From Candidatus Zixiibacteriota bacterium (lineage in GTDB: Bacteria > Zixibacteria > MSB-5A5 > SM23-73-2), in NCBI GenBank assembly GCA_030615745.1, contig JAUWYR010000038.1:1-24981 (forward strand): a stretch of 24,981 nucleotides of DNA, given 5' to 3'. How positions within the stretch are numbered: the first letter of the stretch is position 1; each line of letters starts with the position of its first letter. Shown one piece after another: positions 3,004 through 21,666 of this stretch. Made by a program: the position numbers and the translations under genes. The notes under the pieces are model-generated. The model was not told the DNA's origin. It saw only the letters and a list, made by a program, of their open reading frames with translations, and did no database searches.

Positions 3004-3297
3004 TAAAATGTCAACCCGATAGGTCATGAGTCTTGCTTTTGACCGAGGTTTTAGATCTCAGCAAGACTGGGGCACTATCTTTTGTTGGGTCGGGAATTGG
3101 ATTTCCCGACCAAACGCTTCTGTGCAGGAATTCCAATTCCTGCACGAACCATTAAAAATATCAACGCGATAGGTCACGAGTTTTGCTCGTGACCGAGGTT
3201 AAGCCCCAGCAAGACTGGGGCACTATCTTTTGTTGGGTCGGGAATTGGATTTCCCGACCAAACGCTTCGGTGCGGGAATTCCAATTCCCGCACGAAC
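3004..3297. repeat. Tandem duplication (period about 148 bp) packed with hairpins
   Basis: Two copies (about 3004-3149 and 3153-3297) lie head to tail. Each holds four palindromes: a GGTCACGAG/CTCGTGACC hairpin, a GCCCCAG/CTGGGGC hairpin, a GTCGGGAA/TTCCCGAC hairpin (3088-3109 and 3236-3257), and a long hairpin with AATT near the tip (3122-3145 and 3270-3293). In the second copy every stem is perfect. In the first copy the first two stems carry mismatches, whereas the last stem has a compensated change (A:T in place of G:C). The segment lies in the 520-bp spacer between the convergent GH57 and tldE genes and shows no protein-coding sign. Confidence 0.85.
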
Positions 3298-3305
3298 TAA
3301 AAATA

Positions 3306-3328
3306 AACTCAACCCTTCAGGTTGAGTT
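3306..3328. repeat. Hairpin AACTCAACC / GGTTGAGTT
   Basis: A perfect 9-bp stem with a CTTCA loop, directly after the tandem duplication. It has the same general form as the loop-insertion hairpins nearby but contains no 15-bp module. Confidence 0.6.
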
Positions 3329-3337
3329 ACGATTTAA

Positions 3338-3370
3338 GTAAACCTGCCTGTCTGCTCAGGAAAGGTTTAC
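3338..3370. repeat. Nested hairpin: GTAAACCT / AGGTTTAC with 15-bp loop module
   Basis: The outer arms GTAAACCT (3338-3345) and AAAGGTTTAC (3361-3370) enclose the 15-mer GCCTGTCTGCTCAGG (3346-3360), and ACTCCA follows. A sister element without the module lies at 8493-8510 and is also followed by ACTCCA. Its stem reads GTAAAGCT/AGCTTTAC, so one C:G pair has become G:C. Confidence 0.8.
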
Positions 3371-3418: not shown

Positions 3419-3455
3419 CCCACGTTGCCTGCCCGGCCAGGGAGGGCAACGTGGG
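3419..3455. repeat. Nested hairpin: CCCACGTTG / CAACGTGGG with 15-bp loop module
   Basis: Outer arms at 3419-3426 and 3442-3455 enclose GCCTGCCCGGCCAGG (3427-3441). Removing the 15-mer leaves CCCACGTTG-AGGG-CAACGTGGG, a perfect hairpin, as expected of a precise insertion. Confidence 0.75.
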
Positions 3456-8254: not shown

Positions 8255-8294
8255 CCATGCAAATCATAATTTTTGGAGAAATTTCTAAAGAGTT

Positions 8295-8369
8295 CGTCGG
8301 GCATGTGCGTATGCATCAAGAGATCCGAAGGATGTCCGAAGGACTCTTCGAGCTTCGCAAAGCCCGACG
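8295..8369. repeat. 75-bp dispersed repeat, copy 1
   Basis: Ends CGTCGGGC/GCCCGACG form an 8-bp inverted repeat. Inside, an AAGAG/CTCTT stem encloses two short hairpins, ATCC-GAA-GGAT and GTCC-GAA-GGAC, so the element can form a branched (three-way) structure. It is identical over 75 bp to 8629-8703. Confidence 0.85.
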
Positions 8370-8492
8370 TTACATTTAACTCCTTAACATAAACCCTTTG
8401 AAATACTCTTACAATGCTTTTTGATAACCTATTCTAATTTGAATATAAAAAAATTAGGAGGACAATCAAGTAAAAATTTGGCTAATTTTAAA

Positions 8493-8540: not shown

Positions 8541-8605
8541 CGTGCTGTTCGGGTCCCCTGACCCGAACAGGTATTCCGCCAAGTCAGGGGACTTGGCAGT
8601 CACGG
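8541..8605. repeat. Double-hairpin element, empty form
   Basis: Two adjacent hairpins, GTTCGGGTC/GACCCGAAC and GCCAAGTC/GACTTGGC, are joined by a short GTATTCC linker. Read on the minus strand, the segment aligns end to end with 15912-15991, except that the latter carries 15 extra bases in the loop of the second hairpin. Confidence 0.8.
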
Positions 8606-8628
8606 AATTTGGTTTCGACTAAAAAATT

Positions 8629-8703
8629 CGTCGGGCATGTGCGTATGCATCAAGAGATCCGAAGGATGTCCGAAGGACTCTTCGAGCTTCGCAAAGCCCG
8701 ACG
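8629..8703. repeat. 75-bp dispersed repeat, copy 2
   Basis: Identical to 8295-8369 and in the same orientation, 334 bp away. The flanking bases differ apart from a short TTCG/ATTCG lead-in, which suggests that the 75 bp is the mobile or copied unit. Confidence 0.85.
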
Positions 8704-8721
8704 CTACGTTTTTTTTAACTG

Positions 8722-8812
8722 AACCCTAAAACCTACTACCTATCACCTACTACCTATTTCCTATCACCCACCACCTACCACCTAATACCTCTCAAACAAC
8801 CTCCCCCACTCA
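8722..8812. repeat. G-free low-complexity tract of CCTACYA/CCTATCA units
   Basis: Ninety-one bases contain no G on the plus strand. The centre (8731-8790) is a degenerate tandem array of ACCTACTA/CCTATCA/CCACCTA units. It overlaps the last codons of the DUF362 gene. On the minus strand it is a GGT/GGTAG-rich run just after that gene's stop. Confidence 0.7.
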
Positions 8813-9858
8813 GTCTTCTTAAATTCATTTATGAGCCTCCTCCCTACTGTCGGATACCACAGTATATCATGATAAAAATTCGAGGCAAAGGATGCCCATC
8901 CCACCAAAGGTGATTTCAACAATATCCCTTCCAAAAATCTCAGAGGTCCAATTCTTAACATCTGGTCTCCCCAGATAACAAAGCTCTTTTTGACCTTGAA
9001 CCCAAAATTAACAGAAGATATATCTTCTCCGATTATCTCGATCTCTTTTGGGTCGCCAACTCCTAATCCTTTTTCATGACAAATTCTAATGTATGGGATA
9101 GTCATCGGGTCAAAGCCCATGAGTTTAGCTGAGATAGAATCTATGGCTACTGAATCGAAAGAAGCTAAAATGTAATTTTTGATCTCTGGTTTCATTGTTC
9201 TTGGACCTGCTCCGTCACCGCAAACTGTACCGTCCATCACAGCGAAAACACTCGGATGAATTTCTTTTTGCATAAGCAAAAGATCAACCAATACCTGGTG
9301 AATATATTTATGCCCGTAATGCCTGAACTCCTTAAGCAGACCTCCAAATGAGTTTTTTATAGCTCCGGTGGTAATTGAATGTCCGTGGGTTTTAACTGTT
9401 GGAAGATGGATCACCTGTTTGCCAATAAACATCTTTGGAATCTCAATTCCTTTTGGAAAAAGTAAGTTTAATTTCAAGAGTTTGCTTTTGAATTCATATT
9501 TTATCCATTCAACTTCAGTTAAGGGGGTGAATTTAATTTTATATTTATTCAAAACACTTAGCCACCTATTATTTTCCGCTCCTTTCACAGGATCAGTAAC
9601 CACAGTCTTGTTTTCCACAGGTAAAAGTTTTTCTTTTTTAAATCCATCTTCCAATAAAGTCTTTAAAACACCTTCTAACTGCCAGGGTTCAGAGGAGCAG
9701 GATGGAAAATACTTTGTCCAGGAAAGATTAAGTTTTAACAGAGTCTCTTTATCTTTAGGGAGAAACTTTTGATATTCGGATAGTTTCAAAAGCTTTGTGT
9801 AATCTTCTAAGACCTTATCCGGTGAGGTTTTTAATACTATGACTTTAGGCTCTGACAC
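8782..9858 (-). CDS. DUF362 domain protein, about 358 aa
   Basis: The protein matches the DUF362 family. Visible family-type segments are HLPTVKTHGHSITTGAIKNS with FGGLL following (about 155-180), FAVMDGTVCGDGAGP (about 210-225), and ILASFDSVAIDSISAKLMGFDP (about 235-255). No CxxCxxC ferredoxin motif is present, so it lacks the iron-sulfur domain fused to some DUF362 proteins. The biochemical function of the family is not established. Two GTG starts are possible. GTG 9867 abuts the upstream stop and has no ribosome site. GTG 9858 has AGGTGA, made partly from the upstream TAG, 5 bp before it and is preferred. The tight junction with the UbiA-type gene indicates one operon and coupled translation, so a role in the same polyprenyl-phosphate sugar pathway is possible. 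Confidence 0.8.
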   Translation of the reverse strand: MSEPKVIVLKTSPDKVLEDYTKLLKLSEYQKFLPKDKETLLKLNLSWTKYFPSCSSEPWQLEGVLKTLLEDGFKKEKLLPVENKTVVTDPVKGAENNRWLSVLNKYKIKFTPLTEVEWIKYEFKSKLLKLNLLFPKGIEIPKMFIGKQVIHLPTVKTHGHSITTGAIKNSFGGLLKEFRHYGHKYIHQVLVDLLLMQKEIHPSVFAVMDGTVCGDGAGPRTMKPEIKNYILASFDSVAIDSISAKLMGFDPMTIPYIRICHEKGLGVGDPKEIEIIGEDISSVNFGFKVKKSFVIWGDQMLRIGPLRFLEGILLKSPLVGWASFASNFYHDILWYPTVGRRLINEFKKTEWGRLFERY

Positions 9859-9867
9859 AAAAATCAC

Positions 9868-10737
9868 CTATATATATACGATTATCAAAACACAGATAAG
9901 CCATAAAAAGATGTCGATTAAAATCGGAAAATCGGTCAAAAGAAGCTTTGATGGGCTTCCCCCCTCCTCTTTCTGATGAATCAGATAAAGATACCTGAAT
10001 ATTCCATACAAAACAAATGGGATGGTCAGCTCCAGATGTTCAACGTTCAATTTCTCCTTAACCTCAGGTGAAAGGGTATAAAAAGCATAAGCCACCACAG
10101 TTGATGCTGTGACTACTGAGATCAACTGGTCTAAAAAATAAGGGCTGTATTCGGTCAATATTTTTCTATGAGTGTTTGCTTTGTCTTCTAACAAAATCAG
10201 CTCATATCTTCTCTTGCCGAACCCCAAAAAAAGTGCTAAAAGAGTTGTGCATACCACAAGCCAGGAGGAAATAGTTACACCGATAACAACTGCTCCAGCC
10301 ACAGCCCTGAGCACAAATCCAGCTGAAATGCACATCACATCAAGTATGACTATATGTTTTAAATATTTGGAGTAGACAATATTTAGAGCAAAATAGATTA
10401 AACACACAAGAAAAAAATTCCCGCTTAAATAATATGAAAAAAGAAGAGATAACAAAGCCAGTGCGCCTGAAAAAAGTAAAGCGGAAAAGATTTTGAGCTT
10501 ACCAGAGGCTATTGGTCTTCTGGATTTAAGAGGATGTGCTCTATCATAACGTAGGTCTATAACATCGTTTATTATATACACACTTGAGCAGAGAAGGCAG
10601 AAAAGAAAAAAAGCATAAAAAGTTTTGATAAGCATAAAAGAGTTAAGTAGATTTTGAGAAAAGATAACTCCTGCAAAAAGCAAAAGATTTTTTACCCACT
10701 GGTTGGGTCGCATGGAGATTAAAATCTGTTTAATCAT
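9868..10737 (-). CDS. UbiA-family prenyltransferase, decaprenyl-phosphate phosphoribosyltransferase-like, 289 aa
   Basis: This is an integral membrane protein with about eight or nine helices. RPNQWVKNLLLFAGV at the N-terminus and NDVIDLRYDRAHPLKSRRPI (Asn57, Asp58, Asp61, Asp65) followed by ASGK are characteristic of the DPPR-synthase branch of UbiA (the Mycobacterium Rv3806c type). The second aspartate-type region includes GFGKRRYELILLEDK and TEYSPYFLDQLI. In mycobacteria this enzyme joins phosphoribosyl pyrophosphate to polyprenyl phosphate, the first step towards a lipid-linked arabinose donor. In other bacteria related genes serve undefined glycolipid or cell-wall pathways. The partner epimerase genes (DprE1/DprE2) are not in the window. 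A TTTACA/TATATT promoter lies just upstream. ATG 10737 has only a weak GGA ribosome site, which may mean a short leader. Confidence 0.85.
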   Translation of the reverse strand: MIKQILISMRPNQWVKNLLLFAGVIFSQNLLNSFMLIKTFYAFFLFCLLCSSVYIINDVIDLRYDRAHPLKSRRPIASGKLKIFSALLFSGALALLSLLFSYYLSGNFFLVCLIYFALNIVYSKYLKHIVILDVMCISAGFVLRAVAGAVVIGVTISSWLVVCTTLLALFLGFGKRRYELILLEDKANTHRKILTEYSPYFLDQLISVVTASTVVAYAFYTLSPEVKEKLNVEHLELTIPFVLYGIFRYLYLIHQKEEGGSPSKLLLTDFPILIDIFLWLICVLIIVYI

Positions 10738-10763
10738 AGAAGTTCCATTCTGTTAATCGACTT

Positions 10764-10791
10764 AATATATTAAATTTTGAGGGAATGTAAA
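10764..10791 (-). promoter_or_regulatory. Sigma70-like promoter of the UbiA-DUF362 operon
   Basis: Minus strand TTTACA (10791-10786), 16-bp spacer, TATATT (10769-10764). It lies about 25-50 bp before the ATG, giving a leader of about 20 nt. Confidence 0.4.
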
Positions 10792-10816
10792 GGGGAAAAG
10801 AGGTGGGTTTTTGTAC

Positions 10817-11052
10817 GGTCAAAAGTTACCTCGTGACCGGTTAATATCTGGTAGCAGAAGATAACTTCTGTTACCACAGAAAGAGATTTCAGGATTAATA
10901 GAACGATAGTATGATTAACCGAAGAACAATCAGATAAAGTAACTCAGAACTTCTTCCTAATCCGCTTATTAGCAAAAGATTACAATAATCTCTTCAAGTT
11001 ATTTGTCAAGCGCAACAAAATGTAGGCACGAATTCATTGTGCAAATAAAGAA
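10817..11052. repeat. Spacer 10738-11117: scattered and decayed hairpins
   Basis: The 380-bp spacer holds a GGTCAAAAG/CTCGTGACC imperfect hairpin (10817-10838), related to the first hairpin of the 148-bp duplication. It also holds GGTAGCAGAAG/CTTCTGTTACC (10850-10875) and a truncated copy (11032-11052) of the palindrome at 6735. No gene is visible. Confidence 0.55.
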
Positions 11053-11117
11053 TAAAATGAATTTGAGACTTACTAATTCAAACACTTTTTTGAGAACAAC
11101 AAAGAAATGTAGGATTA

Positions 11118-12929
11118 TCAGGGATGTTTGACCGCCATCTTCTCTGTCATATAAATCATCGCCCTGTTCTTCCCCTCGCTTTTAGCCTTTAAAAGAGCCA
11201 TATCAGCACACCAGATCAATCTATCAGAATCTTTTGCGTCCCGAGGATAGATGGCTGAGCCTAAGCTTATGGTTATATGATGGGTGTGGTCCAAATATTC
11301 ATCTTTAAAGGGGAAAGCCTCTATGCTTTTTCGTAGTCTTTCCATAAATTTCCTACATTCCGCTGAATCGGTCTCAGGCATAATCACACAGAACTCCTCC
11401 CCTCCATAGCGACAGACAACATCAATAGACCTGACCACTTTTAAAAGATGATTGCCCAACTGTTTTAAGAGGCTATCCCCTGCTTGATGACCAAAAGAAT
11501 CATTGTAAATTTTAAACTGGTCTATGTCGAACATCACCAAAGCTAACTTTCTTTCAAATCTTTTAGCTCTGAATATCTCCTCATTTAACCTCTTATAGAA
11601 ATACCGATAGTTATAAAGCCCGGTCATGCTATCAGTATAGGAGAGTTCCTCGATCATCTTATATTGCTTGATGTTTCTTAACGATAAAGATGCCATGTTC
11701 AAAAGAATGGAAAAGGAGGATAGGTCAATTCCTTGGTATTCTCGATTTTTCCTTTTTATACCTAATAAGACAACGCCAAATCGACTATCAGGGAGATTTA
11801 GTTTGGAACCAAGAACAAACCCTTTCCTTTCTAAAAAAGCCAAAAGGTAACCCTCTTTTTTCTCGACATCCTTAAGAAAAAATGGCTCGGTTTTGCTTTG
11901 AATCCAAAAATAGAATTGGGATTTTTTGTTCAAAGAAACAGAAGGTGTGTTTTCGAGCTCTATATCTCTGGAATATCTGGGAAAAAGGTCTCCTGTGTCT
12001 TTCTCTGGCAACAAAATCATTATCTTTTCTGAATCAAAGTGCTTTTGCAAAGTTTCTATTAAAATGAAAAATAACCTCTCCTCATCCAAAGAATTGTAGA
12101 GGTTTTCAGTCTCCTGGAAAAGGGCATAAAGATCAAAAATCTTTTTTTTCAACTCCCTTTCTGAACTCTCCTTTCTCCATTTTTCTAAAGATAGGTAGCT
12201 TTCGATTTTTCTTTTTTTTGATTTTATTTCCTCTTTCAACTTTTTTATTTCAAATTCTTTTGCAACTTTCTTACTTACCCAAAGGATTAAATTTTTCTCA
12301 AAATCCAAAAGAGCTGTTCTTTTTGCTTTGATCAGAGCCAGTGCAAAAATTTCAGATTCATCTTCAATTTGAAAAAGTAGGTTAAAACCCACTTCATCTA
12401 TAAGTTTCTCAAAATCTTTGCCTAAATCGTCATATCCTTTGAATTCTATTTTAAAAATAGCCTGCCCAGTTAAGGAAGCCCCTGATTTCAGTTGTGAGAT
12501 TAACTTATCATTTATCTCAAAGTGAAGCCTTTTGTAAACTGATTTAGAAAGGTTGTATCCAAAAACCGGTTTGAATTCTTTTTTGTTTCTTACAAAAAGC
12601 AAAAGGCAATCGAGCCCTATGAGTTCATCTAAAAATTCAGTTAAAAATTTGGTCCACTTAGAGAGGGTAAATTTTTTCTTAGAATCTCTTTTTACCTCAA
12701 ATACCTTTTCTGTCAAAAGCCTTACTTTTTGAGTAAATTGAGAGTTGGTTCGATTCGCTCTATTCCATGCATTATAGATAAATCCTAAGATAAAAAACAA
12801 ACCTATAAAGACTATCTTTACCCCAAGCTGGATCTGTGCCAAAAAAAGCCAGGCAACACACAAAATCACAAGCAAGGAAAAGACAACAAAGGTGGAAATA
12901 TCTTTGGATTTAAAAAGATTAAAACTCAT
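11118..12929 (-). CDS. Membrane-bound diguanylate cyclase with GAF-like region and GGDEF domain, 603 aa
   Basis: Two N-terminal hydrophobic helices (about residues 13-30 and 34-52) anchor the protein in the inner membrane. A long charged region rich in Lys/Glu, likely coiled coil (about 225-265), leads to a GAF-like sensory part (about 275-420). The C-terminal GGDEF domain starts at YTDSMTGLYNYRYFYKRLNE. The active-site signature is GGEEF (509-513), an accepted functional variant, with the metal-binding Asp in MFDIDQFKIYNDSFGHQAGD. The inhibitory I-site RxxD is present as RSID (500-503), five residues before GGEEF, so product inhibition by c-di-GMP is expected. No EAL domain is present. It should make c-di-GMP from two GTP in response to an unknown signal. 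The gene is alone between two spacers; its start at ATG 12929 has a weak ribosome site. Confidence 0.92.
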   Translation of the reverse strand: MSFNLFKSKDISTFVVFSLLVILCVAWLFLAQIQLGVKIVFIGLFFILGFIYNAWNRANRTNSQFTQKVRLLTEKVFEVKRDSKKKFTLSKWTKFLTEFLDELIGLDCLLLFVRNKKEFKPVFGYNLSKSVYKRLHFEINDKLISQLKSGASLTGQAIFKIEFKGYDDLGKDFEKLIDEVGFNLLFQIEDESEIFALALIKAKRTALLDFEKNLILWVSKKVAKEFEIKKLKEEIKSKKRKIESYLSLEKWRKESSERELKKKIFDLYALFQETENLYNSLDEERLFFILIETLQKHFDSEKIMILLPEKDTGDLFPRYSRDIELENTPSVSLNKKSQFYFWIQSKTEPFFLKDVEKKEGYLLAFLERKGFVLGSKLNLPDSRFGVVLLGIKRKNREYQGIDLSSFSILLNMASLSLRNIKQYKMIEELSYTDSMTGLYNYRYFYKRLNEEIFRAKRFERKLALVMFDIDQFKIYNDSFGHQAGDSLLKQLGNHLLKVVRSIDVVCRYGGEEFCVIMPETDSAECRKFMERLRKSIEAFPFKDEYLDHTHHITISLGSAIYPRDAKDSDRLIWCADMALLKAKSEGKNRAMIYMTEKMAVKHP

Positions 12930-13211
12930 AGCCTAAACTCAAGATTTGAGTATAAAATGTTAAAGTTTTTTTCAGCACCATTTAATATTTTAAAAAAGAG
13001 ATTTTTCTTTTTATTAACTTATCGGCTGGATTAGTTGTGGAATAAAGGGAGAAAGGGATGTATTTGATTATATTTAAGTAAGAATGCTGAAAAGCAATTA
13101 AAGAAAATTAAAGTCTTTTCATTAGTAAAGAAAAACACAAAGTTTGTAGATATAATTTATTGGAAGTTACAGTGAGAAGTAATGATAGAATAGAGCATCT
13201 TGCTCTGTTTT

Positions 13212-13250
13212 TGGAGTGCGATCCCGCCTTTGGCGGGACGCATGCACCCC
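13212..13250. repeat. Nested hairpin with TCCCGCC-TTT-GGCGGGA core
   Basis: The 17-bp palindrome at 13222-13238 sits between GGAGTGCG and CGCATGCACCCC arms, which pair imperfectly. The same 17-mer occurs in the opposite orientation at 21630-21646 inside a different hairpin. The rest of the 12930-13380 spacer is AT-rich, with no gene seen. Confidence 0.6.
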
Positions 13251-13287
13251 ATAATTTATTTTGAGGATGTTATCATTTACCCAGAAG

Positions 13288-13342
13288 TCTGTTTGCGGGG
13301 ATGCCTGCCCGTGCTACAGAGATAACATCCCCGCTGAACAGA
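13288..13342. repeat. Nested hairpin TCTGTT..CGGGGAT / ATCCCCG..AACAGA with an 18-bp module variant
   Basis: The arms pair over about 14 bp. In the loop, after GGGGAT, stands GCCTGCCCGTGCTACAGA (13303-13320), a longer variant of the 15-bp module that keeps the GCCTGCCCG start. GATAACATCC follows, as at 15183. Confidence 0.65.
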
Positions 13343-13380
13343 TCAAACGGAGAAAATTTCATCGTATTAAAAAATTTTTC

Positions 13381-15078
13381 TCACTTGAATTCGAGCACTA
13401 TTCCCTCTGTTTCCCATCTGGAGCGAACATTTAGTGTATCAGGATAAATAATTTTTGGCTCTGATGGCAAAAAAGGATAGGGGTTGCCAAAATCAAACTT
13501 CTGGTCACAATCTAAGTCAATAAAAGCACTTAAAAGATAGGCTCCAGGCAAGATACTGTCGAATAAAAATTCATTTGGTTTTTTTAAAATCTTTTGATAA
13601 TCTAATCTCGGTGGTTCTATTTTAGAGAGGATAATAAAGATATCTTTTTCCTCGGTTTTAGATAATACTTCAACTCTTCCTGAAAGGCTTCCTAAGGTAT
13701 CGGGATTCAGAGTTGTAAAGCTTATCTCAAATGGAATTGTGTCCAGAAGATTTCCAGCTAAATCTGTAACTTTGTTTTTCAATTCAAGTCTGTATTCTTT
13801 TTGACCTGAAAGCAAATTTTCTGGAACGAAAACAAAGGTAACTGGACCATTCCAAAAATAATTGCCTTCAATTTTTTCATCTTCTTTCTCTTTTAAAGCA
13901 AAAGATTTTTCAACCGAGAGTTTTTCAGGAGGTTTTTCAAAAAAGATTTTTATCTCGGTATCCAAAGGAACTATTTTTCCTTTGTCAGGGGGAGAAGTCG
14001 CAAGAATTTTTAATCTTGAAGTATCAGGCAAGTCAGCGCCTGTAAAAAAACAGAAGTTTTTTTCAGGGTCAATTCGATTTCCGAACTTATCCTCGATATT
14101 TAATACTGAAAGCTTATAATTTCTTTTTGGCTCAAGCTTATCTGTTATCAAAAAAGCCTTTTGAAAATTTTTATAAAGAGAATAAACTTTTTTAATCTTA
14201 AAAGTTTTCTCTGGTTTTTCCTCATAGGTGATCAAATAGGATTCTGGATCAACAAGTGTTTTTGAGTCAATTAACTCATCGAACTCCACACTTATTAAAT
14301 TTTTATTCAATGCCTTGCACTCAACTAAAGAGGGCTTGGTTGTATCCTGTTTGAATAAAAAGAAATTCAGGTTATCTTTTCTAAAAGATCCAGAATTTAA
14401 TTTCACGTCGCAAGTTGTAACACCAACAAGCTCTTTTTCAACATCCAGCAAATAGTCTTTGTTTTTATCAAGAATTGCAAATAGTCTATAGGTTCCGAAT
14501 GATAGATTTTTTAGCTGGTAACCACCTTTTTCATCTGTCTGGGTAACGTAGTCAGGTAAAAACAAAGATGGGTCCGGCTCCTTTTCAGATAAAAGATAAG
14601 CTAAAATCAAGATCCCTGACATACTTTTTTTATCTGAGTACACAAAACCTGATATAAAGCCCGAATCAATAAAATCTCCAGTTGAAAAAGCAAAACAAAA
14701 AGGCGATTTCATTCTATTACCATGTAAATCCATAGCATCTGTTCCTAAGGTGACAACATAGGTTTTATCCATTAAAAGAGGCTCTTTTGGATAAATGCTT
14801 AATCTTTTCTTATGCCACTTAAACTCAAAAGGCGTTTTTGGCAAAGGTGAAACAAAGACTGCATCCTGAGTTTTTTTCTGCGACATTCTTTCTGAGAAGA
14901 AAATCTCGATTTTAGTATCTAAACCCACTCTGACTGAATCTTTTAGAGGATGGGTCTTGACCACCTCAGGTGGAGTCAAATCCTTTGGACCACCCGGAGG
15001 CATCCCCTGTTTGGCACATCGAGAAAATAAAAGGGTTACCGATAGAAAGATTAAGATAAAAAGTTTTTTTGAACTCAT
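13381..15078 (-). CDS. Lipoprotein with Ig-like (Big_5/SbsA-type) domains, 565 aa
   Basis: An N-terminal signal (MSSKKLFILIFLSVTLLFSRC) ends in a cysteine at residue 21 followed by AKQGMPPGGPKDLTPPEV. This PPGGPKD..PP opening is common in lipoproteins of FCB bacteria. The lipobox has Arg just before Cys (FSRC), which is not canonical, so lipidation is likely but not certain. The first Ig-like domain spans about 34-130 (DLTPPEVVKTHPLKDSVRVG ... FAFSTGD), with the KIEIFFSERMS strand of the SbsA/Big_5 type. A carboxypeptidase-regulatory-like segment follows (about 138-215, GISGFVYSDKK...YQLKNLSFGTYRLFA). Two more Ig-like domains lie at about 245-345 and 355-450, and a second regulatory-like domain is C-terminal. 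It is probably surface or periplasmic, with a structural or adhesive role. It has no enzymatic motif. The ribosome site is weak. Confidence 0.82.
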   Translation of the reverse strand: MSSKKLFILIFLSVTLLFSRCAKQGMPPGGPKDLTPPEVVKTHPLKDSVRVGLDTKIEIFFSERMSQKKTQDAVFVSPLPKTPFEFKWHKKRLSIYPKEPLLMDKTYVVTLGTDAMDLHGNRMKSPFCFAFSTGDFIDSGFISGFVYSDKKSMSGILILAYLLSEKEPDPSLFLPDYVTQTDEKGGYQLKNLSFGTYRLFAILDKNKDYLLDVEKELVGVTTCDVKLNSGSFRKDNLNFFLFKQDTTKPSLVECKALNKNLISVEFDELIDSKTLVDPESYLITYEEKPEKTFKIKKVYSLYKNFQKAFLITDKLEPKRNYKLSVLNIEDKFGNRIDPEKNFCFFTGADLPDTSRLKILATSPPDKGKIVPLDTEIKIFFEKPPEKLSVEKSFALKEKEDEKIEGNYFWNGPVTFVFVPENLLSGQKEYRLELKNKVTDLAGNLLDTIPFEISFTTLNPDTLGSLSGRVEVLSKTEEKDIFIILSKIEPPRLDYQKILKKPNEFLFDSILPGAYLLSAFIDLDCDQKFDFGNPYPFLPSEPKIIYPDTLNVRSRWETEGIVLEFK

Positions 15079-15115
15079 AATTTCTTTTTGTGTTATGTCA
15101 AGATCTCAGTCCTTT

Positions 15116-15202
15116 CGTTCTTGGCGGATGTTATCATCCGCCACGCAGTTAGAATTCTGTCAAGGATGCCTGCCCGGCCAGGGATAACATCCTCGACGAA
15201 CG
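15116..15202. repeat. Compound hairpin with an empty and a filled GGAT..ATCC hairpin side by side
   Basis: Outer CGTTC/GAACG arms enclose an empty hairpin GGCGGATG-TTAT-CATCCGCC (around 15124-15141). A filled one follows, where GGAT is followed by GCCTGCCCGGCCAGG (15168-15182) and GATAACATCC. Removing the 15-mer gives GGATGATAACATCC, exactly the reverse complement of 15126-15139. Confidence 0.75.
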
Positions 15203-15250
15203 TAAAGTTTTAAGCATCAGGAGTAGAGCTTTTGACTAACTATTTAAAAC

Positions 15251-15478
15251 TCAAAGATTGGCTAAAAATTCCTTAGGCGTAACTTTTGCCAGCTTCAAAA
15301 TACCTCTCAAAGTTCCAATCCTAAGCTCTTGGTGAAGGGGAACCACACATCCAATTTCACCGCTCTCTATTTTCCTTTTTAAAACCACATGACTTCCTCG
15401 CTGTCTTACTATTTTGAAACCGAGTCTTTCAAGTGCTTTAATCGTTTCTTTCCCTGATACTTTCCTTAGCTCAGGCAT
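15251..15478 (-). CDS. hicA: HicA-family toxin (mRNA interferase), 75 aa
   Basis: This small double-stranded-RNA-binding-fold protein has KALERLGFKIVRQRGSHVVL. The catalytic His30 lies in the GSH segment that defines HicA (YcfA) toxins, which cleave mRNA in translation-dependent fashion. The length is normal for the family. The ATG (15478) overlaps the end of hicB by 8 bp, and a GAGG ribosome site lies inside hicB, so the toxin is translated only with its antitoxin. No extra domain is present. It is flanked downstream by palindromic repeats. Confidence 0.9.
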   Translation of the reverse strand: MPELRKVSGKETIKALERLGFKIVRQRGSHVVLKRKIESGEIGCVVPLHQELRIGTLRGILKLAKVTPKEFLANL

Positions 15479-15683
15479 TGTAGACTACCTCAAATGTGGT
15501 GAGAATCGGTTTGTCTAATTTGAGGGAGGGAAATTCTTCTAAGTAAAGTTCTGTTGCTTCTTTCAAATTGGCAATTGCTTCTTCAATTGTATGACCTTGA
15601 CTTACAGTTCCGACTTCAGGGCACTCAGCGACATACATATCTTCTTCTTTGTGAAGGATTGCGGTAAATGTTTTAGTGGTCAT
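15471..15683 (-). CDS. hicB: HicB-family antitoxin, 70 aa
   Basis: The start ATG 15683 has GGAGG (15696-15692) 8 bp upstream; a TTG five codons earlier overlaps that site and is unlikely. The protein has the short HicB fold: FTAILHKEEDMYVAECPEVG, then SQGHTIEEAIANLKEATELY, then a C-terminal strand. It lacks the C-terminal helix-turn-helix or ribbon-helix-helix found in longer HicB proteins, so autoregulation by DNA binding is uncertain. It should neutralise HicA by direct binding. The antitoxin gene comes first, the reverse of the classic E. coli hicAB order; this order is common for the short HicB type. Confidence 0.9.
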   Translation of the reverse strand: MTTKTFTAILHKEEDMYVAECPEVGTVSQGHTIEEAIANLKEATELYLEEFPSLKLDKPILTTFEVVYNA

Positions 15684-15826
15684 TTTTGTAACCTCCAAAG
15701 AATTTTTTTTATCAACTTTAGGATAATTAAGTCAATTTAAATCTATGAAATTGCAATAGGATTTGCAAGATTTTTTTATCTCTTTCAATTTGCATTTCTA
15801 AAAGAGACATCTTTCATCTTTAGGTT

Positions 15827-16152
15827 GTGTCGGCACTCTAATCCGGACACCTTTTTTAAGCGTCAGAAGTAGAGCTTCTGACTCAACTATTTTAAAAATA
15901 CCCTTCTCTTTCCGTGCCTGCCAAGTCCCCTTTGGCTGGGCAGGCTGACTTGGCGGAATATCAGTTCGGGTCAGGGGACCCGAACTGCACGAATGATCAT
16001 TATTCTGTGTTGGTGCGGGAATTCCAATTCCCGCACTAACAAAAGAGTTTTTTAAATCGGTAATCCCATGTTTTTCTGTGTTGTGTCGGGACCTCAGTCC
16101 TGACACCTTTTTAAACTTACGCAACCTGCCTGCCCGGCCAGGGAAGGTTGCG
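15827..16152. repeat. Cluster of six palindromes in the spacer 15684-16157
   Basis: In order: GTGTC/GACAC (15827-15850); GTCAGAAG/CTTCTGAC (15862-15882); the filled double-hairpin element (15912-15991), inverse to 8541-8605, with TTTGGCTGGGCAGGC at 15931-15945; the GTGCGGGAATT/AATTCCCGCAC hairpin (16013-16036), same as 3270-3293; GTGTCGGGAC/GTCCTGACAC (16083-16106, one G-T pair); and CGCAACCT/AAGGTTGCG with GCCTGCCCGGCCAGG in its loop (16120-16152). An open frame of 108 codons across this cluster (15798-16124, minus) is made of the palindromes themselves and is not counted as a gene. Confidence 0.8.
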
Positions 16153-19240: not shown

Positions 19241-19273
19241 TCAATCCTGCCTGTCCGGCCAGGAAAGGATTGA
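19241..19273. repeat. Nested hairpin TCAATCCT / AGGATTGA with 15-bp loop module
   Basis: Arms TCAATCCT (19241-19248) and AAAGGATTGA (19264-19273) enclose GCCTGTCCGGCCAGG (19249-19263). Without the module the arms form a continuous hairpin with an AA loop, the same pattern as at 3338 and 16120. Confidence 0.75.
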
Positions 19274-19288
19274 ATTACGAGACTTTTC

Positions 19289-19344
19289 CGCGGGCATGTG
19301 CGTATGCATCAAGAGATTCGAAGAATGCTTCGCAAAGCCCGACG
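19289..19344. repeat. Shortened third copy of the 75-bp dispersed repeat
   Basis: It shares the GGGCATGTGCGTATGCATC, AAGAGAT and CTTCGCAAAGCCCGACG parts with 8295-8369 but lacks 18 bp that include the second GAA hairpin. Its remaining hairpin reads ATTC-GAA-GAAT instead of ATCC-GAA-GGAT, a compensated base-pair change. Confidence 0.75.
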
Positions 19345-19356
19345 CTATGCTTTGCC

Positions 19357-21607: not shown

Positions 21608-21666
21608 CCTCTCCCCTGTCCCCTCTCCATCCCGCCAAAGGCGGGAGAGAGGGGTATGGGGTGAGG
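21608..21666. repeat. CCCCTCTC / GAGAGGGG hairpin with TCCCGCC-AAA-GGCGGGA in the loop
   Basis: The arms also pair further out (CCTC..CCCC with GGGG..GAGG). The 17-bp palindrome occupies 21630-21646; removing it leaves CCCTCTC-CA-GAGAGGG. The same 17-mer in inverse orientation lies at 13222-13238. Confidence 0.65.

Follow-up and report, generated by a model that had tools for sequence, protein, structure and literature searches.

A dispersed 15-bp DNA unit, probably inserted at hairpin tips, in a Zixibacteria genome and in other bacterial phyla

The 15-bp sequence CCTGCCCGGCCAGGG is probably a mobile-type insertion unit, put in after a G in pre-existing sequence and apparently copied in trans. 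In the window, by which we mean the whole 24,981-nucleotide stretch of DNA analyzed from a Candidatus Zixiibacteriota bacterium, two double-hairpin elements differ in length by exactly 15 bp, a difference that is likely to reflect one insertion of this dispersed unit.

The two elements, 8541-8605 on the minus strand and 15912-15991, belong to a single double-hairpin family (Table 1), as a preliminary description of this DNA had proposed, and the details that it gave all proved correct. Pairwise alignment of the reverse-complemented 8541-8605 with 15912-15991 yielded four substitutions and one 15-bp gap, the sole length difference between the elements; two of the four substitutions form a compensatory stem pair (CTGTTCGG/CCGAACAG vs. 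CAGTTCGG/CCGAACTG). The pair was also recovered in the repeat search, as inverted repeats I2 (50 nt, 92%) and I18 (22 nt, 95%). Each element is laid out as GTG, a hairpin tipped GTCCCCTGAC, an AATAYC linker, a hairpin tipped GTCAGGGGAC, and CAC, and both fold much better than shuffled sequences (z -7.3 and -5.7). The extra bases, TTTGGCTGGGCAGGC, are located at the tip of the first hairpin, the one with GCCAAGTC/GACTTGGC arms; this copy of the unit is diverged, with three mismatches to the consensus, and its orientation relative to the AGGGG loop is that of all other filled double-hairpin copies. The two elements had been presented as a filled/empty comparison, and this stands insofar as a discrete 15-bp unit is present or absent at one hairpin tip, with which the genome-wide data agree, but the elements are paralogues and not alleles.

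Table 1. Coordinates of the double-hairpin elements and of copies of the 15-bp unit in the window.
Feature	Position	Strand	Remarks
Double-hairpin element, empty copy	8541..8605	-	65 bp, both loops 4 nt
Hairpin of empty copy	8545..8570	.	CTGTTCGGGTC-CCCT-GACCCGAACAG
Hairpin of empty copy	8578..8597	.	GCCAAGTC-AGGG-GACTTGGC; counterpart filled in the other element
Double-hairpin element, filled copy	15912..15991	+	80 bp
15-bp unit, diverged copy	15931..15945	-	GCCTGCCCAGCCAAA on the minus strand; 15930-15944 equally good (one-base ambiguity)
Second hairpin of filled copy	15962..15987	.	CAGTTCGGGTC-AGGG-GACCCGAACTG; unfilled
15-bp unit, exact copy	3428..3442	+	Arms CCCACGTTG and CAACGTGGG on either side
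15-bp unit, exact copy	15169..15183	+	GGATG/ATAACATCC hairpin family
15-bp unit, exact copy	16129..16143	+	CGCAACCTG/AAGGTTGCG hairpin family
15-bp unit, variant copy	19250..19264	+	CCTGTCCGGCCAGGA, in CAATCCTG/AAGGATTG hairpin
15-bp unit, probable degenerate copy	3347..3361	+	CCTGTCTGCTCAGGA, flanks AAACCTG and AAGGTTT; repeat family D8, putative assignment

At up to three mismatches, the 15-bp module occurs at five places in the window vs. 0.19 matches in shuffles, and no Rfam families were found in the window. Other small repeats are present as well. A second small palindrome, CCGCCWWWGGCGG, lies at 13224-13236 and 21632-21644 (two window copies; chance 0.00) and recurs at L043, L148, L153, and L159; it is found at hairpin tips at several loci, sometimes adjoining ATCCACCTWCGGTGGAT, and the related CCCGCCTCTGGCGGG is located in a LeuRS loop of another Paceibacteria genome (L274). 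This palindrome is possibly another dispersed module. A repeat of about 90 bp (8285-8377, 8619-8711, and 19273-19353), which starts with CGTCGGGCATGTGCGTATGCATCAAGAG and ends with GCAAAGCCCGACG, the two ends being complementary, looks like a small MITE, and a 116-bp segment with several tagged hairpins is present at both 3059-3174 and 3207-3322 (148-bp spacing, 89% identical).

We analyzed the assembly of the window's organism (G000; 2.28 Mb, 74 contigs, 98.55% complete), which was read in stretches and not whole. The consensus CCTGCCCGGCCAGGG is an imperfect palindrome plus one G, and its 14-base core is present at ≤1 mismatch in 126 copies, vs. 0 for the reversed control; a count of 258 obtained at two mismatches was discarded because the near-palindrome had been counted on both strands. 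Pieces of the unit are the commonest 12-mers in the 487 kb read, a density that is biased upon selection of the stretches around hits. By itself, the unit has no stable fold (z 0.16).

The preliminary description had named a range of loop lengths as the mark of random drift, and no such continuum exists. In the DNA read, GTC-loop-GAC hairpins of the CCCT/AGGG type have loops of 4 nt (a few of 3 or 5) or of exactly 19 nt, with none between, and each of the ten loops of 19 nt contains the same 15-bp unit; drift is refuted by these bimodal lengths. Random drift of the loop, or else a sequencing or assembly artefact, is a virtually negligible explanation: all genomes analyzed are metagenome assemblies, and repeats are prone to assembly error, but intermediate loop lengths are lacking, diverged variant copies of the unit exist among the hairpin sites, the same unit appears in assemblies of unrelated studies, and reading frames stay open in essential genes.

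Evidence for insertion of a discrete unit also comes from its flanks. Deletion of exactly 15 bp produces a 16-nt junction that is present elsewhere in the organism's own DNA read at 43 of 94 sites, the empty sites being mostly paralogous, compared with zero to three junction matches for any other deletion length in the range 9-23 and with 4.4 when flank pairs are shuffled. The base 5' of the unit is G at 91 of the 94 sites, the base 3' is mostly A or G, and the unit is inserted without loss of target bases and without target duplication beyond the one-base ambiguity. Approximately 46% of unit copies are situated between arms of ≥7 bp, vs. 1.5% of random positions. The hosts comprise at least nine unrelated hairpin families, and the unit is also found within genes, in tandem with a period of 15 (L049, L091, L092), and nested in itself, either directly (L233, CCTGCCCG[CCTGCCCGGCCAGGG]GCCAGGG) or inverted (L161). 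A longer parent element was rejected, given that gapped forms CCTGCCC...CCAGG have essentially one length (14 bp, 177 sites) and that a 27-28-nt form was encountered only twice, both times in KSB1. The 28-nt form, CCTGCCCGTGGCCGGGCTACGGCCAGGG, contains an internal hairpin (L205 and L246, KSB1) and may be either a parent form or the product of nesting.

The genome search for further double hairpins that had been suggested at the outset returned about 20 clear copies in the organism's own assembly. In an alignment of eleven unfilled copies, 97% of cells are paired, and 26 cells are double-changed vs. 8 expected, a covariation reached in 0 of 500 shuffles. The two loops are mutually complementary (CCCCT, AGGGG), so the two hairpins of the element form an inverted pair, an arrangement close to that of a REPIN; like a REPIN, the element is a single dispersed unit of two inverted hairpins with structural covariation. 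At the hairpin foot, however, there is no GTAG (or CGTC) tag, most copies ending in GTGC...GCAC, and all three host RAYT genes are flanked by hairpins other than this one, with the reservation that approximately 1.5% of the genome may be missing. Because the tag is lacking and no RAYT flanked by the double hairpin was found in the stretches read, we describe the element only as "REPIN-like", without assigning it to the REPINs. The three genes in G000 are RAYT-type Y1 genes, each with one copy of another tagged hairpin (GTAG or GTTG) on either side, and many of the small hairpin repeats that host the unit resemble REP sequences of the kind that RAYT (Y1) transposases spread.

Approximately eight hairpins are chimeric, with the left arm of one family and the right arm of another joined across the unit (among them L010, L039, L048, L059, L151, L155, and L173), indicating that the unit is also a recombination point, which could explain part of its spread. 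It is unlikely, however, that the unit spreads mainly as a point of crossover or strand switching (possibly a site for site-specific recombination) at which recombination or template switching between repeats exchanges arms and carries the 15 bp along. The chimeras, the near-palindromic core, and the single orientation of the filled double-hairpin copies are all consistent with such exchange, while about 58 classifiable sites have both arms of the same family, many of them exactly 15 bp off an empty copy, insertions in heptamer repeats and housekeeping genes have no flanking homology to the hairpins, and nested and tandem copies exist, all of which argue against such exchange as the main route.

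We surveyed 132 genomes of the phylum, ten of which contain the exact 15-mer, with many copies in only a few. Zixibacteria PMV_8.32 (G033) has ten copies, several of them in GGGTTTG[unit]ATTAATCAAACCC hairpins of which the empty form is present in the same genome. The rplV gene of this organism holds one unit, and the rplV-rpsC region of G018, from the same genus, is 80% identical with a 15-nt gap at that position; this is an orthologous filled/empty site at the DNA level. The genes flanking 15912-15991 are syntenic in G001, which belongs to the same genus as the window's organism (73% nucleotide identity), and the spacer that holds the element is about 1.1 kb in the window genome vs. about 200 bp in G001, so the whole hairpin/unit block is either lineage-specific here or was lost in G001. 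Within G000, in-frame copies of the unit are also found in a gene for an rve-type integrase and in several Mutator-family transposase copies, mostly near contig ends (L144, contig C34; L041, L045, and L145, contigs C9, C11, and C35). IS elements could be vehicles for its transfer from one genome to another.

Dispersed copies of the identical unit occur outside Zixibacteria as well, in a KSB1 genome (17; control 0) and in Paceibacteria, including Colwellbacteria (22 copies), Terrybacteria (14), Paceibacter (12), and two Kaiserbacteria genomes (nine and five), with controls of 0 throughout; only 5 of the 121 genomes in the Colwellbacteria neighborhood carry it. For the name search across phyla, a single 19-base form was used, which misses carriers with other flanks, and a few single hits of this search in GC-rich genomes are probably due to chance. 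The 19-base form has no match among IMG/VR contigs, a narrow test from which virus-borne spread gains no support. In the KSB1 and Paceibacteria carriers, three in-frame copies of the unit lie in leuS, two in lepA, and one in rnhB. The five residues are missing at the three leuS sites from 18 related LeuRS proteins, LeuRS and RNase HII proteins of known structure are gapped at the unit positions, and none of the six frames of the unit contains a stop codon. Many of the unit sites in these organisms are heptamer repeats, and exact removal of 15 bp restores the heptamer register there (7 of 61 sites).

Such exact conservation across phyla, together with the near-palindrome and its frequency in intergenic hairpins, in which neisserial uptake sequences are frequent as well, might suggest a selected protein-binding or DNA-uptake signal that is renewed by selection or biased uptake and not by insertion. 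We regard this as exceedingly improbable, since the 15 bp are added exactly to intact sequence, whereas origin by point mutation would add no length; moreover, copies are tandem, nested, and present inside conserved enzymes, and nearly all relatives are without the unit.

CCTGCCCGGCCAGGG is added after a G, leaving the target bases intact, and in this genome it most commonly targets small hairpin repeats, at the tip or in the upper stem. We infer that it spreads by being copied in trans, the enzyme being one that the unit does not itself encode, with hairpin tips, single-stranded or nicked during replication, as the preferred entry points. Among the candidate enzyme classes considered, Y1/HUH-type single-strand transfer is the most plausible. 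Every Zixibacteria genome tested has Y1 transposases, as do KSB1 and three of the five Paceibacteria carriers, and Y1_Tnp was not found in the Paceibacteria carriers G138 and G206, genomes that may be incomplete; a Y1 enzyme in every host, as befits an element mobilized by IS200/IS605 or RAYT, is thus not what is seen for the 15-bp unit. Y1 transposases normally need a fold. Since Y1 was not found in two carriers and the unit does not fold by itself, Y1 involvement is treated here as hypothetical. RAYT genes with a unit nearby were rejected as a candidate, as none of the three RAYT genes of the host has a unit within approximately 1.5 kb.

Insertion might alternatively proceed from a short RNA that is reverse-transcribed, with the cDNA entering new sites, a route proposed for the small dispersed repeats of cyanobacteria and brought to mind by the heptamer-repeat settings, the nesting, and the small size of the unit. 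This route is very improbable for the present unit: no PF00078 reverse transcriptase was found in the Zixibacteria genomes searched, among them the 98.55% complete one of the host, which has the most copies, and reverse transcriptases occur in only some of the Paceibacteria carriers. A reverse transcriptase is therefore unlikely as a general answer and was rejected as a required partner.

No prior description of CCTGCCCGGCCAGGG was found in the literature searched by sequence and by keyword. Mobile DNA is normally recognized by genes or terminal repeats, and we give an even chance to the broader proposition that CCTGCCCGGCCAGGG is the smallest mobile DNA unit known, with no genes and no fold, copied in trans in at least three bacterial phyla, and tolerated in essential proteins as five stop-free codons. 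If this is true, the known lower size limit of mobile elements would drop, the unit would hint at an undescribed insertion enzyme, and it would also be a source of five-residue insertions in protein loops.

Several known systems share features with the unit. Among them are the small dispersed repeats (SDRs) of Nostoc and its relatives (Elhai et al. 2008, cited in PMC3116915 and PMC2884548). SDRs are approximately 20-27 nt in length and are not known from outside cyanobacteria, some of them with a conserved fold. Similarly to the present unit, they are very small dispersed units proposed to be mobile, they nest within themselves, and they are often embedded in heptamer tandem repeats and other small repeats, settings also seen here (heptamer register restored at 7 of 61 sites; self-nesting at L233 and L161). 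In contrast to SDRs, the unit is exactly 15 bp, has no conserved secondary structure (z 0.16 for the unit alone), is present in three phyla (Zixibacteria, KSB1, and Paceibacteria), and lies in frame in genes.

With REP/REPIN sequences and their RAYT transposases (PMC3116915, PMC3733652), the resemblance is on the side of the host hairpins, which are short palindromes and inverted dimers, and of the RAYT genes with GTAG- or GTTG-tagged hairpin flanks, whereas the 15-bp unit has neither a REP hairpin nor a GTAG/CGTC tag. According to Tobes and Pareja (2006; PMC1525189), IS elements insert in REP sequences, so that small palindromic repeats serve as insertion targets in both cases; there the inserted element is a full IS with transposase genes, whereas the 15-bp unit is noncoding. 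Finally, the Rickettsia palindromic elements (RPE), which belong to Rickettsia, are palindromic units of approximately 150 bp that each contain a reading frame of their own, and they resemble the present unit as tolerated in-frame insertions in unrelated protein genes (PMC10969869). The unit described here is only 15 bp, open in all six frames, and inserted in frame in leuS, lepA, rnhB, and rplV.
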